The position numbers and the translations under genes were made by a program. Shown here piece after piece: positions 43,269 to 52,015 of a stretch of DNA of 64,000 nt; positions within the stretch are counted from its first letter, which is position 1, and every line of letters starts with the position of its first letter. Under the pieces are notes generated by a model that was not told the DNA's origin, did no database searches, and was given only the letters and a program-made list of their open reading frames with translations. The DNA comes from Chthoniobacterales bacterium (lineage in GTDB: Bacteria > Verrucomicrobiota > Verrucomicrobiia > Chthoniobacterales > JACTMZ01): assembly GCA_018402585.1 (NCBI GenBank), contig JAGYIO010000001.1, positions 434,001-498,000 on the forward strand, read 5' to 3'.

Positions 43269-43438
43269 GGGAGGAGGAAAGAAAATTGGCGGACTGCGAC
43301 CATCAAGCCGGGCCCGCAAAATTTCTCACCATTCGGTTGGACCGGGCCCGGAGCAATGATGTTCAACCAAAAAGGCCGCAAATAAACGAAAAACCTTCAT
43401 TTGACCTCCTGACCGGCAGCGGGGATGGTTCCTCTGCG

Positions 43439-44593
43439 ATGAACCGTGCTGTCTCCCGCCTTCTTTTGCACGCCTTCGACGAAGCACGGGTGCGCACGGC
43501 CGCGGAAGAAATGCGGGCCGAATTGGGCGGGGCCCCGACCCTCGCCTTGGCTTTCCTCTCGGCCGGCTACGCCTCCCACCTGGCCGAATTCCAAGAGATC
43601 GTCGCGGTGCATGGCCATGTTCCCTTTCTCGCCGGCTGCACCGGTTCCGGTCTGATCGGCACCTCCTGCGAAGGCGAGACGAGCGAGGGCTTCTCCCTGC
43701 TTTTTCTTCATCTGCCGGAGGCAAAAGTCCGCGCCGTCCCGCTTTGCCAAGCGCAGGTCGAGACCTCGCAGGGCGACTCCTTTTGGGCGGAAGTGGCCGG
43801 CCGTCCGGCTCAAGCCTGGCTCTTGCTGGCTAATCCGTTCCGCTTCGACGCCGACACCTGGCTGCGCGAATGGAACCTCGCCTTCCCCGGCGCCCCCGTG
43901 CTCGGCGGCCTGGCCAGCGGACCCCGCGGGGACGAGGAGGTGACCGTCTTCGGTCCGGCCATCGGCGACACCTCCGACGCCCTCGCCCTCGCCCTGGACG
44001 GGGTGCGGATCGAAACGGTGGTCAGCCAAGGATGCCGTCCGATCGGCGAGGCCCTGCCGGTCACCCGGGCGGAAGAACATCTCCTCTACGAACTCGGCTC
44101 CCGCCCCGCTTATCAGGTGCTCGAGCAGGCTTTCAACACCCTGGCCGAGGCGGACAAACAACGCGCCCGCGGCAATCTTTTCGCCGGCTTGGTGGTCGAC
44201 GAATACAAAGAGAAGTTCGCCCGCGGCGATTTTCTGGTCCGCAACATCCTCGGGGCCGATCCGGCCACCGGCGCGGTGGTGGTCGGCGCGCATCCGCGCA
44301 CCGGGCAGACCTTGCAATACCAGTTGCGCGATGCGGCCAGTGCGGACGAAGAACTCAAAGCCCTCCTTGCCCCCCTCGCCCGGCGGGCCGAAAAACCGGT
44401 CGCCTCGCTTCTCTTCTGTTGCAACGGCCGGGGCAAAAATCTTTTCGGCAGCCCCGACCATGACGCCCGGGTCGTCGCGGAGACACTCGGACCCCTCCCC
44501 TCCGCCGGCTTCTTCTGCAACGGCGAAATCGGTCCGGTGGCCGGCCGCAATTTCCTCCACGCCTACACCGCGTCGATCGGATTGATCTACTGA
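43439..44593 (+). CDS. FIST-domain protein
   Basis: The 384-residue protein has a FIST N-domain (about 35-225; FLAGCTGSGLIGTSCEGE, LLANPFRFDADTWLREW) and a FIST C-domain (about 230-365; ELGSRPAYQVLEQAFNTLAE, LLFCCNGRGKNLFGSPDHDA, FFCNGEIGPVAGRNFLHAYT). FIST proteins are cytoplasmic small-molecule sensor modules, often for amino acids, in signal transduction. No output domain (kinase, GGDEF) is present here, so it may work with a partner or serve as a stand-alone sensor. It is divergent from the large GH13 gene. The ATG at 43439 was chosen as the start of the conserved region. Confidence 0.88.
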   Translation: MNRAVSRLLLHAFDEARVRTAAEEMRAELGGAPTLALAFLSAGYASHLAEFQEIVAVHGHVPFLAGCTGSGLIGTSCEGETSEGFSLLFLHLPEAKVRAVPLCQAQVETSQGDSFWAEVAGRPAQAWLLLANPFRFDADTWLREWNLAFPGAPVLGGLASGPRGDEEVTVFGPAIGDTSDALALALDGVRIETVVSQGCRPIGEALPVTRAEEHLLYELGSRPAYQVLEQAFNTLAEADKQRARGNLFAGLVVDEYKEKFARGDFLVRNILGADPATGAVVVGAHPRTGQTLQYQLRDAASADEELKALLAPLARRAEKPVASLLFCCNGRGKNLFGSPDHDARVVAETLGPLPSAGFFCNGEIGPVAGRNFLHAYTASIGLIY

Positions 44594-44609: not shown

Positions 44610-44690
44610 ACCGCTGCCTCCATCGCGCCACGGGACTTGTCCTCGCGGCCGGCGGACACCAGGTCCAACGCGCGGCCCGAGGCTTGAGGG
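44610..44690. repeat. REP-like element pair (family 2)
   Basis: This stretch contains CGCGCCACGGGACTTGTCC (about 44623-44645) and GGCGGACACCAGGTCCAACGCG (about 44655-44680). These are diverged copies of the two hairpin elements that bracket the transposase at 46.65-47.86 kb, here in the reverse order. Confidence 0.6.
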
Positions 44691-46454: not shown

Positions 46455-46784
46455 AAGGGGGGAATTAAGATGTTGGGGGAATTTGCAATGGCCGCAGCCT
46501 CAAAAAGACTGTGTCATTTATGAAATCTAGATACGCCCGATTTGCCGGAAGGTCAACGAAAATTTTTCAAGAATTTCGACCCCGGCTTTCAGGCGGGTTT
46601 CCCGGCCGGTGCGGTGCCGCGGAGAAAGGGTAGGGGCGCCGCCTGGAGGAGACCTGTTGCGGTCGGTCGACACCAGGTCCACCGCGCCGCCCAGAGCTGA
46701 GCCCGCCGCCCGTCTTGCCCTTCGCCAGCCCATCCCCGCGCCACGGGGCTTGTCCCCGTGGACGGGAGAGGCCAAGGTCCGCCC

Positions 46785-47588
46785 ATGCGCACGAGACGCA
46801 CGGACCTCGTCCACCGCATCGCGTATTCCTGGACCGGCTGGCCGCAGGACGAACCCTTTCCATCCGAGCCGAGCGACGACTTCCTCCCCACCCTCGACGC
46901 GGCCTGGGCCTCCGACCGCCTGCGCCGCCTGGCCCACCGCTGGCAACCGGATCTGGTCCAGTTCACCTTCGCAGCACCGGGCAATGCCTCCCCGGAATTC
47001 GTCGCAGCCCGCGCCAAGGGCCGCCTTGACCATGCCTTGCGCCGAGCCGGGTGGCGGCACGGCCTGCAGCGCAAAGTCGCGGTGCGTTCCCTCGGGGAAA
47101 ACACCCTCGAGGTCGTGCTCCGCTACATCGCCACCCAATTGGATCGCGCGAACCTGGCCGATCCGCGCTACGCCCACTCGCTGGCCGAGGCGGCCTGGGA
47201 GGATGGGGCCGTCGATCTCGACGAGCCCTTGGCCAGCGGGCACGGCCGCTATTGGTACAATCTGCACCTCGTCGCGGTGACCGGCGGACGCTGGCGGATC
47301 GGGCGGGAGGATTTTCTCCCCAAGGTGACGGCGGCCGTGCGGTCTTGGAGCGCGGAGCTCTCGGCGGCGGGCGGTCCGGGGGAGGCGCGGCCGGGGGTGC
47401 ATTCGCTCGCCGTGATGCCGGATCACGTGCATCTGGCGGTGCGGGGGCCGTCCGCGCAGTCGCCGGACGCGCTGGCCGGCGCACTGCGGGGGGCGCTCAA
47501 TGGCGCGGCGGGGTGTCTGCTTTTCGACCCGCGGGTTTACGCGGGGACGTTTTCCTCCTATCCGCTCGCGCACCTGCGGCCGCGCTGA
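46785..47588 (+). CDS. IS200/REP-associated (Y1-type HUH) transposase
   Basis: The 267-residue protein has a C-terminal half with the Y1/IS200-like signature: YNLHLVAVTGGRWRIG, the HUH motif in LAVMPDHVHLAVRG, and conserved tyrosines in DPRVYAGTFSSYPL. The N-terminal half (DLVQFTFAAPGNASPEFVAA, RAKGRLDHALR, YIATQLDRANLADPR) resembles the extra domain of a transposase family common in Planctomycetota and Verrucomicrobiota. Such enzymes cut and join single-stranded DNA at hairpins. The gene is flanked by direct copies of two hairpin elements, supporting a REP-associated role. The ATG at 46785 was chosen over a GTG at 46758, which lies inside element B. Confidence 0.8.
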   Translation: MRTRRTDLVHRIAYSWTGWPQDEPFPSEPSDDFLPTLDAAWASDRLRRLAHRWQPDLVQFTFAAPGNASPEFVAARAKGRLDHALRRAGWRHGLQRKVAVRSLGENTLEVVLRYIATQLDRANLADPRYAHSLAEAAWEDGAVDLDEPLASGHGRYWYNLHLVAVTGGRWRIGREDFLPKVTAAVRSWSAELSAAGGPGEARPGVHSLAVMPDHVHLAVRGPSAQSPDALAGALRGALNGAAGCLLFDPRVYAGTFSSYPLAHLRPR

Positions 47589-47613
47589 GCCGCCTGTTGC
47601 GGTCGGTGGACAC

Positions 47614-47803
47614 AAGGTCCACCGCGCCGCCCGGAATCTCATCCCTCGCTTCCCCCAAGGTCCACCGCGCCGCCCGGAGTCTCATCCCTCGCTTCCCCCA
47701 AGGTCCACCGCGCCGCCCGGAATCTCATCCCTCGCTTCCCCCAAGGTCCACCGCGCCGCCCGGAATCTCATCCCTCGCTTCCCCCAAGGTCCACCGCGCC
47801 GCC
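47614..47803. repeat. 43-bp tandem repeat, four full copies and one partial
   Basis: The unit AAGGTCCACCGCGCCGCCCG plus GAATCTCATCCCTCGCTTCCCCC begins at 47614, 47657, 47700 and 47743, with a partial fifth at 47786. Copies differ by at most a base or two (A/G at the AATC/AGTC position of copy 2). Each unit begins with the right arm of hairpin element A, so the array grew from the end of the transposase unit. It is contiguous, without CRISPR-like spacers. Confidence 0.92.
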
Positions 47804-47874
47804 AGATCCGCCGCGCCCCGTCCCCCCGCGCCACGGGGCTTGTCCCCGTGGACGGGAGAGGCAGGTCCGTCGGG

Positions 47875-49941
47875 CTACCGCCCGGCCTCGGCCCGCAGGC
47901 GGCGGTAGATCTCGGCGAACTGGCCGCTTTGCTTGATCCCGTCGTCGGCCAGGGCCAAGGCCTTCGGCTTCTGCCCGGTTTGCAGGTAGGACAAAATCAG
48001 CGCCTGATCGGTGGCGACGAGGTCTTCGGCCTGCATCTTAACCCGCGCAGCGAGGAGGTAGGGGATGGCCTCGGTCCATTCCTCGCGCAACTGATGCAAG
48101 CGCCCGAGGTAGCGCTCGGTCAGCCCGCTCTCGGAGTACCCGTGGGTGAGAAGGAATTGTCCTTGGGCGATGGCTTCGGCCGCCTCGGCCAAGGCTCCGG
48201 GGTCGAGCCTGCCGTCGATTTTCTGCCGGCAGGCCAGGGCGAAGTAAACGTATTCGAGCGACCACGAGGTGTAATCGGGGACTTGGCGCGCCGCGATTTG
48301 GTAGAACTTGAGCGCTTCTTCCGTCTTGCCCTCGCGCAGGAGGACGCGGGCCACCATGCCGGTGAGCGGACGGAGCCCGCCGGCGTGCGGACGCAAGGTC
48401 TGCCACTCGCGCGCCGCGGCGAGCACCCCGGGACTCATGCCTGCCTCTTCCTCACGGCACAACTGGGCAAAGACCTCGAAAGCCGGCGTGTTCGTTTTTT
48501 TCATAAACGGCACGCCGAAGAGGACGCGCAGGGTGTGGTTGACCCGGTAGTCGTCGTAGCGGTTGGTGCCGAGGGTTTCCGCGTAGGACTCGTCATCCTG
48601 CACGAGGGCGAGTTCGTCCGGGCCGAGTTGGAGGGGACCGGAAAGGTTGACCATGGCGCCGACCATGGCCCGGGCGGCGAGGGCCTGGCCGGAAAGCGAG
48701 AGATGCACGTGGTCGTCGAGCAATTCCCAGCCGGTGGCCCCGTCGGGGCTTTCCTGGCGGAAGATTTCCGCCACATCGCAAAGCACGGCGCCCTTGACCA
48801 GCGCGGTGTTGCGGATGGCCTGCTCGGTCCGGGAGATCGGGCGCCAGGGCATGGTGTCGAAGTCGCGGGCCTCGAGAAAGGCGGTGCGGGCCAGTTCCGG
48901 TTGGTCAGCGCGGGCCAGCACCTGGCCGAGGAGAAAGCGGGCCCGGGCGTGGCGCGGGGCGAGCTGCACGGCTTGGCGGAGGAGGTTGACCGCCCGGGAA
49001 AAGTCATCGGCCCCGGCCGCGTCGGCCGCCTCGCCCAGGAGGCGGCGCAACTCCCGCTGCTGCGTTTCATCAAGGCCGGCGGTGTCCTCCGCCCCGAGCG
49101 GCGCGAGACCCGACTCGTTGCTCGCCGTGGTGCAGACCATGGCCGGGACGCCCGTCGCTTTGACTTCATCGAGCATGGTGCCGAGGTTGGCCGCGAGATT
49201 GCGGGCCGCCGCCTCGCGCAACGGGGAGTCGGCCGCGATGACCGTCTGGCCGATCATTTCCTCCATCAGGCTCCGGTTTTCGTCCGCCCCCCGGTAAAGC
49301 CAGCTGTCCAGCACCTGAACGAGGGCCAGGCCCCGCGCGGCGCGCATCGCGCGCAAGGCCCAGGGCGGGAGGGAGCCGGCCGCATTGATCGAGGCCGTGC
49401 CGTAAGCGCCGAAGAATTCGTTGTTGCCGGTGTAGAAAATGAAGAGGTCGGGCGAGAAGCGGAGCGCATCGCGCACCTGATAGACGAGCGGGAAGCTGGC
49501 CACCGCGGTCGTGCCGAGGTTGATCACTTCGATGGTTTTCCCCGGCCAGGCATCGGAGAGCATGGCTTGGAGGAAGGAGGACATCGCGAGGTTGCGCGGT
49601 TGCGGGTAGCCCTTGGCGGCGGATTCGCCGACCAGGAAAATACGCACGGTATCTGCCGGCTTGGGCAGGAGAAAATTGGTTTGCTCGGCGTAGCCCGGGC
49701 GGGTCGGATTGGCGAAGAAGTAGGGCTTGGCCGCCGCCGGTTCGACCATGCAAAGGGTCGGGCCGGAGGGCAGTGTCCCGGCCTCACGGATCCACGCCGG
49801 GTAGCCGCCCCAGCCGAAGAGGCGCAGGATCAATTCCGCCGCGGCAAGAAAAAGGAAAGGCAGCGCGACGGTGATGAGAATGAAGAGCCGACGCCTGGCC
49901 GGCGAGAGCGGGAGGTGGGCGCTGGGGGTTTTCTTGGCCAT
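47875..49941 (-). CDS. Membrane-anchored SGNH hydrolase with TPR region
   Basis: The 688-residue protein has an N-terminal membrane helix (about 19-42) and an SGNH/GDSL-like hydrolase domain (about 95-270 and 395-425). Block I reads IFLVGESAAKGYP (nucleophile Ser in GES), block III FYTGNNEFFG, and the catalytic Asp-x-x-His lies in LLDDHVHLSLSGQAL. Between and after these blocks are TPR-like helices (FSRAVNLLRQAVQLAPRHAR; a C-terminal set about 500-680). SGNH enzymes of this kind deacetylate or acetylate extracellular glycans; the TPR region suggests a partner. It is convergent with the transposase unit. The exact substrate is unknown. Confidence 0.75.
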   Translation of the reverse strand: MAKKTPSAHLPLSPARRRLFILITVALPFLFLAAAELILRLFGWGGYPAWIREAGTLPSGPTLCMVEPAAAKPYFFANPTRPGYAEQTNFLLPKPADTVRIFLVGESAAKGYPQPRNLAMSSFLQAMLSDAWPGKTIEVINLGTTAVASFPLVYQVRDALRFSPDLFIFYTGNNEFFGAYGTASINAAGSLPPWALRAMRAARGLALVQVLDSWLYRGADENRSLMEEMIGQTVIAADSPLREAAARNLAANLGTMLDEVKATGVPAMVCTTASNESGLAPLGAEDTAGLDETQQRELRRLLGEAADAAGADDFSRAVNLLRQAVQLAPRHARARFLLGQVLARADQPELARTAFLEARDFDTMPWRPISRTEQAIRNTALVKGAVLCDVAEIFRQESPDGATGWELLDDHVHLSLSGQALAARAMVGAMVNLSGPLQLGPDELALVQDDESYAETLGTNRYDDYRVNHTLRVLFGVPFMKKTNTPAFEVFAQLCREEEAGMSPGVLAAAREWQTLRPHAGGLRPLTGMVARVLLREGKTEEALKFYQIAARQVPDYTSWSLEYVYFALACRQKIDGRLDPGALAEAAEAIAQGQFLLTHGYSESGLTERYLGRLHQLREEWTEAIPYLLAARVKMQAEDLVATDQALILSYLQTGQKPKALALADDGIKQSGQFAEIYRRLRAEAGR

Positions 49942-50037: not shown

Positions 50038-50095
50038 GCAGCCTCGGGCGGTCGGTGGAGACAAGGTCCACCGCGCCGCTCAAGCACCGCGCCGA
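50038..50095. repeat. REP-like element (family 2)
   Basis: GGTCGGTGGAGACAAGGTCCACCGCGCCGCTC (about 50049-50080, in pieces) is another copy of hairpin element A of the transposase unit. It lies between the SGNH gene and a bidirectional terminator. Confidence 0.65.
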
Positions 50096-51807: not shown

Positions 51808-52015
51808 GCTGCCCAGTGTTCAGTTTTCAGTTTTCGGTGTCCAGTGGATCCGGCGACGAAGTCGCCGGAGTTTTCCGTGTTCAGTGATTCAGTGTTCAGT
51901 AACGGCGGGATTCCGGGGGAGCCCGTCCCCCCTGAGCCAAAGCGTCGTCCGTCCGCTGCTCTGCAAAAGACTGAACACTGAACCACTGAACACTGAACCA
52001 CTGAACACTCCGCGC
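51808..52015. repeat. CAGTGTTCAGT-type degenerate repeat, inverted
   Basis: Plus-strand copies such as CAGTGTTCAGTTTTCAG (from about 51814) and GTGTTCAGTGATTCAGTGTT (about 51878-51898) face inverted copies such as CTGAACACTGAACCACTGAA (about 51970-51995). The middle reads GGCGGGATTCCGGGGGAGCC. The array lies between the divergent PHP and ppgK genes and could form a long hairpin. The same motif family appears at 53.94-54.03 kb. Confidence 0.75.

Follow-up and report, generated by a model that had tools for sequence, protein, structure and literature searches.

In IS608, the tyrosine helix of one transposase subunit completes the HUH site of the other subunit. The active sites are reportedly shared between the two IS608 subunits (Ronning 2005). 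The TnpA proteins of the IS200/IS605 family (IS608, ISDra2) are homodimers with two sites, in which each chain is a single HUH-Y core of about 150 aa, and their elements occur at IS-like copy numbers as near-identical copies with discrete ends. The metal of IS608 is bound by the two HUH histidines and by a glutamine located four residues after the tyrosine (PMC6006769), and the guide of IS200/IS605 elements precedes the palindrome, on its 5' side, at either end (PMC8266576).

The REP-associated transposases (TnpAREP or RAYT, class 2) are encoded by single-copy genes placed amid REPs, which stand alone or as inverted pairs, an arrangement called REPtron. Those of the E. coli type (Quentin subclass 2.2) have one core in a chain of about 165 aa (monomer 4ER8), a YxxxNP motif and a GTAG tag, and E. 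coli TnpAREP cleaves between C and T beside its REPs (PMC8266576). Quentin et al. (2018) divided the Y1 proteins into 12 subclasses, all with a single core per protein, and we found neither tandem cores nor Verrucomicrobia mentioned in their text. Class 3 (TnpAY1), whose hosts are Planctomycetes and Acidobacteria, has one 155-aa core in a 178-aa protein, an NHVH motif, a Y-motif ending in Q, a 5' foot CnGA, atypical hairpins and a REPtron-like arrangement. Heterodimeric REP pairs are already known, including those of E. coli REPtrons. The GTAG and CGTC REP families are short palindromes arranged as inverted heterodimers and clusters, the CGTC REPs having no associated transposase, and Opitutus terrae is rich in GTAG REPs (Di Nocera 2013). 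We found no published fused, pseudo-dimeric or split-site Y1 or RAYT protein in the open-access journal literature, an absence that is not a proof.

The window, that is, the whole 64-kb stretch of DNA analysed here, comes from a verrucomicrobial assembly of 2.46 Mb in 35 contigs (nearest named matches: Chthoniobacter-labelled and uncultured Verrucomicrobia MAGs). A preliminary description had placed two hairpin elements, A and B, in matching order and orientation on both sides of an HUH transposase gene, with extra copies 2-3 kb away. The coordinates confirmed both statements (Table 1), the extra copies being a solo A on one side and a degraded B/A pair on the other. The gene is present as a single copy in its genome, and a GTG at 46758, upstream of the ATG, is a possible alternative start.

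Table 1. Features of the transposase locus and of the associated hairpins (positions in the window)
Feature	Position	Strand	Remarks
Degraded B-like and A-like pair	44621..44681		z -0.79 (DNA folding)
A1 hairpin with 5' tag CCTGTT	46653..46690 (hairpin 46659-46690)	+	
B1 hairpin with tag GCCTCT	46735..46772 (hairpin 46735-46766)	-	ends 12 nt upstream of the ATG
Fused two-domain Y1/HUH transposase gene (proposed)	46785..47588	+	267 aa from ATG; PF01797 match; family alignments
N-terminal Y1-like half, residues 10-121	46812..47147	+	tyrosine helix kept, HUH lost
Degenerate HUH position L57 V58 Q59 in N-half	46953..46961	+	aligns with HIH of 2f4f
Candidate catalytic motif Y114-I-A-T-Q118 (YxxxQ)	47124..47138	+	aligns with YIEEQ / YIENQ of IS200 and IS608 transposases
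C-terminal Y1-like half, residues 154-267	47244..47585	+	HUH intact, stops before tyrosine helix
HUH motif D213-H-V-H216	47421..47432	+	D213, H214 and H216 unchanged in 32 members
A2 hairpin with 5' tag CCTGTT	47593..47630 (hairpin 47599-47630)	+	
Tandem 43-bp units	47613..47804	+	3' half of A
B2 hairpin with tag	47825..47862 (hairpin 47825-47856)	-	
Solo A hairpin	50048..50079	+	same place kept in close relatives

A reads GCGG-T-CGGTGGAC-ACAAG-GTCCACCG-CG-CCGC on its own strand, and B reads CCCG-T-CCACGGGG-ACAAG-CCCCGTGG-CG-CGGG on the minus strand; the ACAAG loop, the bulges and the stem lengths are equal and the paired bases alone differ. Stems of 7 bp for A and 8 bp for B, attributed to two distinct hairpin types, had been proposed from the first inspection, but both stems are of 8+4 bp with bulges, and the presence of A's loop and bulges in minus-strand B ruled out two unrelated types. 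Judged from their sequences, A and minus-strand B are one element, and since they share this architecture each flank corresponds to an inverted REP pair (REPIN-like), which occurs in direct order on both sides of the gene. The CGTC motif is present in B and absent from A, and identity with the CGTC REP family was rejected. Five hairpins of the A/B architecture were found in the window versus 0.22 expected from shuffled sequence. The folding z values as DNA were -2.97 for A2, -3.69 for B1, -2.52 for B2 and -1.16 for A1, the latter being weakened by two substitutions. About four 43-bp tandem units, containing only the 3' half of A, lie downstream of A2. The site of the degraded pair (44615-44664) is a variable spot, occupied by other sequence in one relative (L021) and by a PEP-CTERM-like piece in another (L022).

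The complete protein reached 24.4 bits with PF01797, above the gathering score (cutoff 23), and no named NCBIfam family was above its cutoff (IS200/IS605 transposase equivalog, 21.8 bits versus a cutoff of 55). An HUH, Y1-like transposase associated with REPs and with matched hairpins on both sides, as initially described, was recovered. Its N-terminal extra domain had been considered unusual, as indeed it is, but it is not an unrelated domain: profile comparisons indicate that it is a second Y1 domain, homologous to the C-terminal half and carrying the catalytic-tyrosine helix that the C-terminal half lacks. When a profile of 32 N-halves, devoid of HUH, was compared with the PDB, it matched 2f4f (E 9.8e-7), 2ec2, ISHp608 (E 1.8e-5) and ISDra2; all the matches with E < 1 were IS200/IS605-type transposases, other proteins having E > 1, and the alignment placed Y114..Q118 over the catalytic YxxxQ and LVQ over HUH. 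The C-half profile matched the same structures (E 1.5e-13) with the HUH aligned and the alignment ending before the Y helix. PF01797 was matched by 23/32 N-halves and by 32/32 C-halves, and hhalign of one half versus the other gave an E of 6e-5 and a probability of 65%. The AF2 secondary structure was b-a-b-b-a-b-a followed by b-a-b-b-a-b, and the top 28 Foldseek matches of the model were transposases of the IS200, IS608 and ISDra2 type. Confidence in the model was modest (pLDDT 70.6) and poor around the tyrosine helix (pLDDT below 50 for residues 105-111 and 121-125), so that no distance from the tyrosine to the HUH is claimed.

Y114 and Q118 were invariant in 32/32 N-halves and, together with H214 and H216, in all members holding those segments, down to about 25% identity. 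Neither an HUH in the N-half nor a YxxxQ in the C-half was present in any family member holding those segments, the N-half position showing no histidine pair across the family (variants LVQ, HIQ and KIQ). A single composite site is supported most strongly by this complementary loss of motifs within one chain: because IS608 sites are completed across subunits, a fused chain would form one trans-composite site and not two. The likeliest interpretation of these alignments is a pseudo-dimer fused into one protein, whose single trans-composite active site may be formed within one chain or between two chains. In L050, an in-frame deletion joins the N-half tyrosine region to the HUH half in a 187-aa ORF, and this copy is possibly dead.

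When 388 genomes of the phylum (199 genera sampled) were searched with a profile, relatives were detected in 23 genomes and 21 genera. Relatives with a taxon name belong to MAGs of Verrucomicrobia, Lentisphaerae and Planctomycetes. No clear member was found in viral contigs, whose one match was distant and partial (98 residues at 25% identity). The flanks of 34 family loci (up to 700 bp, 42 kb in all) contained 68 hairpins that combined an 8-bp stem with an RCRAG loop, versus 0.025 expected from dinucleotide shuffles, and none was found in 23 kb inside the family genes. These hairpins were within 700 bp of the gene at 23/34 loci, on both sides at 15, and were absent from 11 in a strict scan; the association of hairpin and transposase gene proposed at the outset was consistent in the relatives. 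As the hairpins had been pre-selected for pairing, the percentage of paired positions has no weight and it is the variety of pair types that counts: in 38 distinct hairpins 86 cells changed on both sides, versus 21 when shuffled and 7-19 when slid in register. Stems were identical across the gene in 23/30 same-orientation pairs, a figure inflated by repeated copies within L046, in 6/31 opposite-orientation pairs and in 2.6% of comparisons between loci. The nearest hairpin was in minus orientation upstream in 12 of 16 cases and in plus orientation downstream in 16 of 20. The tag had the consensus RAYCTT and was located some 6 nt from the stem on its 5' side, with an offset of 1-2 nt in the window, and no GTAG tag or 5' GT[AG]G foot was found in hairpins of this class.

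Matches to a covariance model of the hairpin (E 0.001 or better) were found in 15 of the 18 gene-bearing and in 1 of the 14 gene-less genomes (Fisher p 4e-5); some gene-bearing genomes had supplied the model, and their dispersed copies were outside it. Numbers ranged from 1 to at least 96 matches per genome, all being lower bounds as 150 candidates were scored per genome. Copies were few in the genome of the window: two B, one further hairpin on contig C31, and roughly twelve A-like copies, the majority in a single tandem array on contig C30 (L016:2872-3359) made of ten 50-bp units, each with an A-type hairpin. The occurrence of both elements elsewhere in the genome, which the preliminary description had proposed to count, was thus seen for A, while B, with up to 3 mismatches in a pattern search, was confined to this locus. 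Shorter and more degenerate arrays are present at the position of the C30 array in two relatives (G074 and G035).

The proposed comparison of occupied and empty sites could be made with G062, a close relative whose flanking gene is 95% identical and whose locus consists of the left flank, A, one 43-bp unit, B and the right flank; the transposase gene was absent both from the locus and from the rest of this genome. The window differs from G062 by one direct-repeat period (A1-B1-gene) and by the number of tandem units, fewer in G062. This genome branches within the clade of gene carriers (support 98/99 for the clade, 94/95 and 89/92 inside), so loss of the gene is the simpler reading of the sequences. 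If A1 and A2 recombined through recA or slipped on each other, the product would equal that of excision by the enzyme, and either route can yield this allele. Of the other relatives, G026 has a single A at the locus, and G018 and G043 have no such hairpin. The gene adjoining the locus (47875-49941, minus strand), for a TPR and GDSL-lipase-like protein, is kept in 8 of the 11 genomes of the genus and is a useful anchor for such empty-site comparisons.

We consider it probable that the locus is a REPtron of a separate lineage, whose tandem-duplicated, fused Y1 transposase has a divided catalysis. In the N-half, Y114 would act as the nucleophile and Q118 as third ligand of the metal, and the C-half would give the HUH histidines H214 and H216. 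The enzyme would bind the RCRAG-loop hairpin in single-stranded DNA and cut at the pyrimidine-rich, CT-containing tag 5' of it; a 5'-phosphotyrosine would be formed, the ends rejoined and the REP pairs mobilised. The RAYCTT-type tag is the likely cleavage site, by analogy with the C-T cutting of E. coli TnpAREP. The equivalents of left and right ends around the gene would be A1/A2 on the top strand and B2/B1 on the bottom strand. Against this explanation we count the modest AF2 model with its poor tyrosine helix, the hhalign probability of the two halves, the few copies in the own genome with B confined to this locus, the missing GTAG, the possible origin of the G062 allele by recombination or slippage, the invariance of Y252 in the C-half and the 11 of 34 loci in which the strict scan gave no RCRAG hairpin.

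The presence of an HUH and of a catalytic tyrosine with a third ligand four residues on, although in different halves, places the protein in the Y1/HUH superfamily (PF01797). It shares with the E. coli-type REPtrons the HUH-Y1 core, the single-copy gene flanked by REPs, the bulged hairpins dispersed in the genome (at low number in its own) and the CT-containing tag. Unlike TnpAREP, it has two cores, with YxxxQ in one, in all members instead of YxxxNP, and HUH in the other, and its REPs have an RCRAG loop. With IS200/IS605 TnpA it has in common YxxxQ, DHVH, hairpin ends in direct orientation with a 5' guide and, as proposed, active sites shared between two subunits. Since each palindrome of IS200/IS605 has its guide on the 5' side, a bracket in direct orientation is in keeping with that family, contrary to what had first been thought. 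The fused family differs from IS200/IS605 in having one chain with one complete residue set, a single copy and REP dispersal. Class 3 is the nearest in Y-motif and atypical hairpins, and is distinguished by its single core and its CnGA foot. The GTAG and CGTC REPs resemble the present hairpins as short palindromes in inverted heterodimers and clusters, and differ in tag and loop.

A tentative extension, possible but on the doubtful side, is that a fused Y1 dimer was pruned to one site with each half recognising another hairpin of the pair, giving an obligate, asymmetric, single-site REP mobilisation. In that case the stems of the plus hairpin and the minus hairpin would be free to diverge within a REP pair, and the one-site machine would contrast with the two-site tyrosine exchange of IS608. 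Domestication, in which the protein would bind REP pairs (for regulation, at the nucleoid or at mRNA ends) having lost DNA cutting, agrees with the one copy per genome in most hosts, with the same position inherited in four relatives and with the few REPs in the own genome; it seems improbable to us in view of the invariance of Y, Q and both HUH histidines over so wide a range of identity and of the tens of dispersed hairpins in gene-bearing genomes. The direct bracket might also be a passive segmental duplication of one REP pair around the gene, without mechanistic meaning, as REPs often expand in tandem (the C30 array, the 43-bp units) and the spacings on the two flanks are unequal, but direct brackets with same-orientation stem matching recur at loci that are unrelated and whose stems differ (L025, L040 with L059, and L046), which makes this explanation unlikely. 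A self-sufficient C-half, using Y252 or Y259 with its own HUH while the N-half merely binds DNA, is very improbable, given that Y252, although invariant, belongs to the strand that corresponds to SYF of IS200 and precedes the tyrosine helix, that Y259, nearly invariant, is R in L053, and that the canonical YxxxQ is invariant in the N-half.

If the fused, split-site reading is right, the new points would be this enzyme and its REP class, with RCRAG loop, covarying stem and RAYCTT tag, in a phylum whose REPs have received little study. A natural single chain with exactly one IS608-like site would test if a single trans site is enough for the movement of REPs, and also whether one-site enzymes arose independently, as E. 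coli-type single-domain RAYTs and as the fused type. As a tool for single-strand DNA, a small hairpin-specific HUH nuclease of this fused, one-site kind could be useful.

Elsewhere in the window, a FIST-domain protein (PF08495, PF10442) is encoded at 43358-44593 (plus strand), and a 28-nt inverted repeat of CACTGAACACTGAA-like units lies at 51873-51997, a similar unit being found near the C30 array. A distant subgroup of the family (L057, L051/L054) has a GTVGPY C-terminus and other repeated hairpins in its flanks, namely nine copies of a TCTCCGGG-RCRAG hairpin in L057 and a CCCGCTTG-C(G/A)GGG-CGAGCGGG hairpin in L051/L054, which together appear to represent a second REP type.
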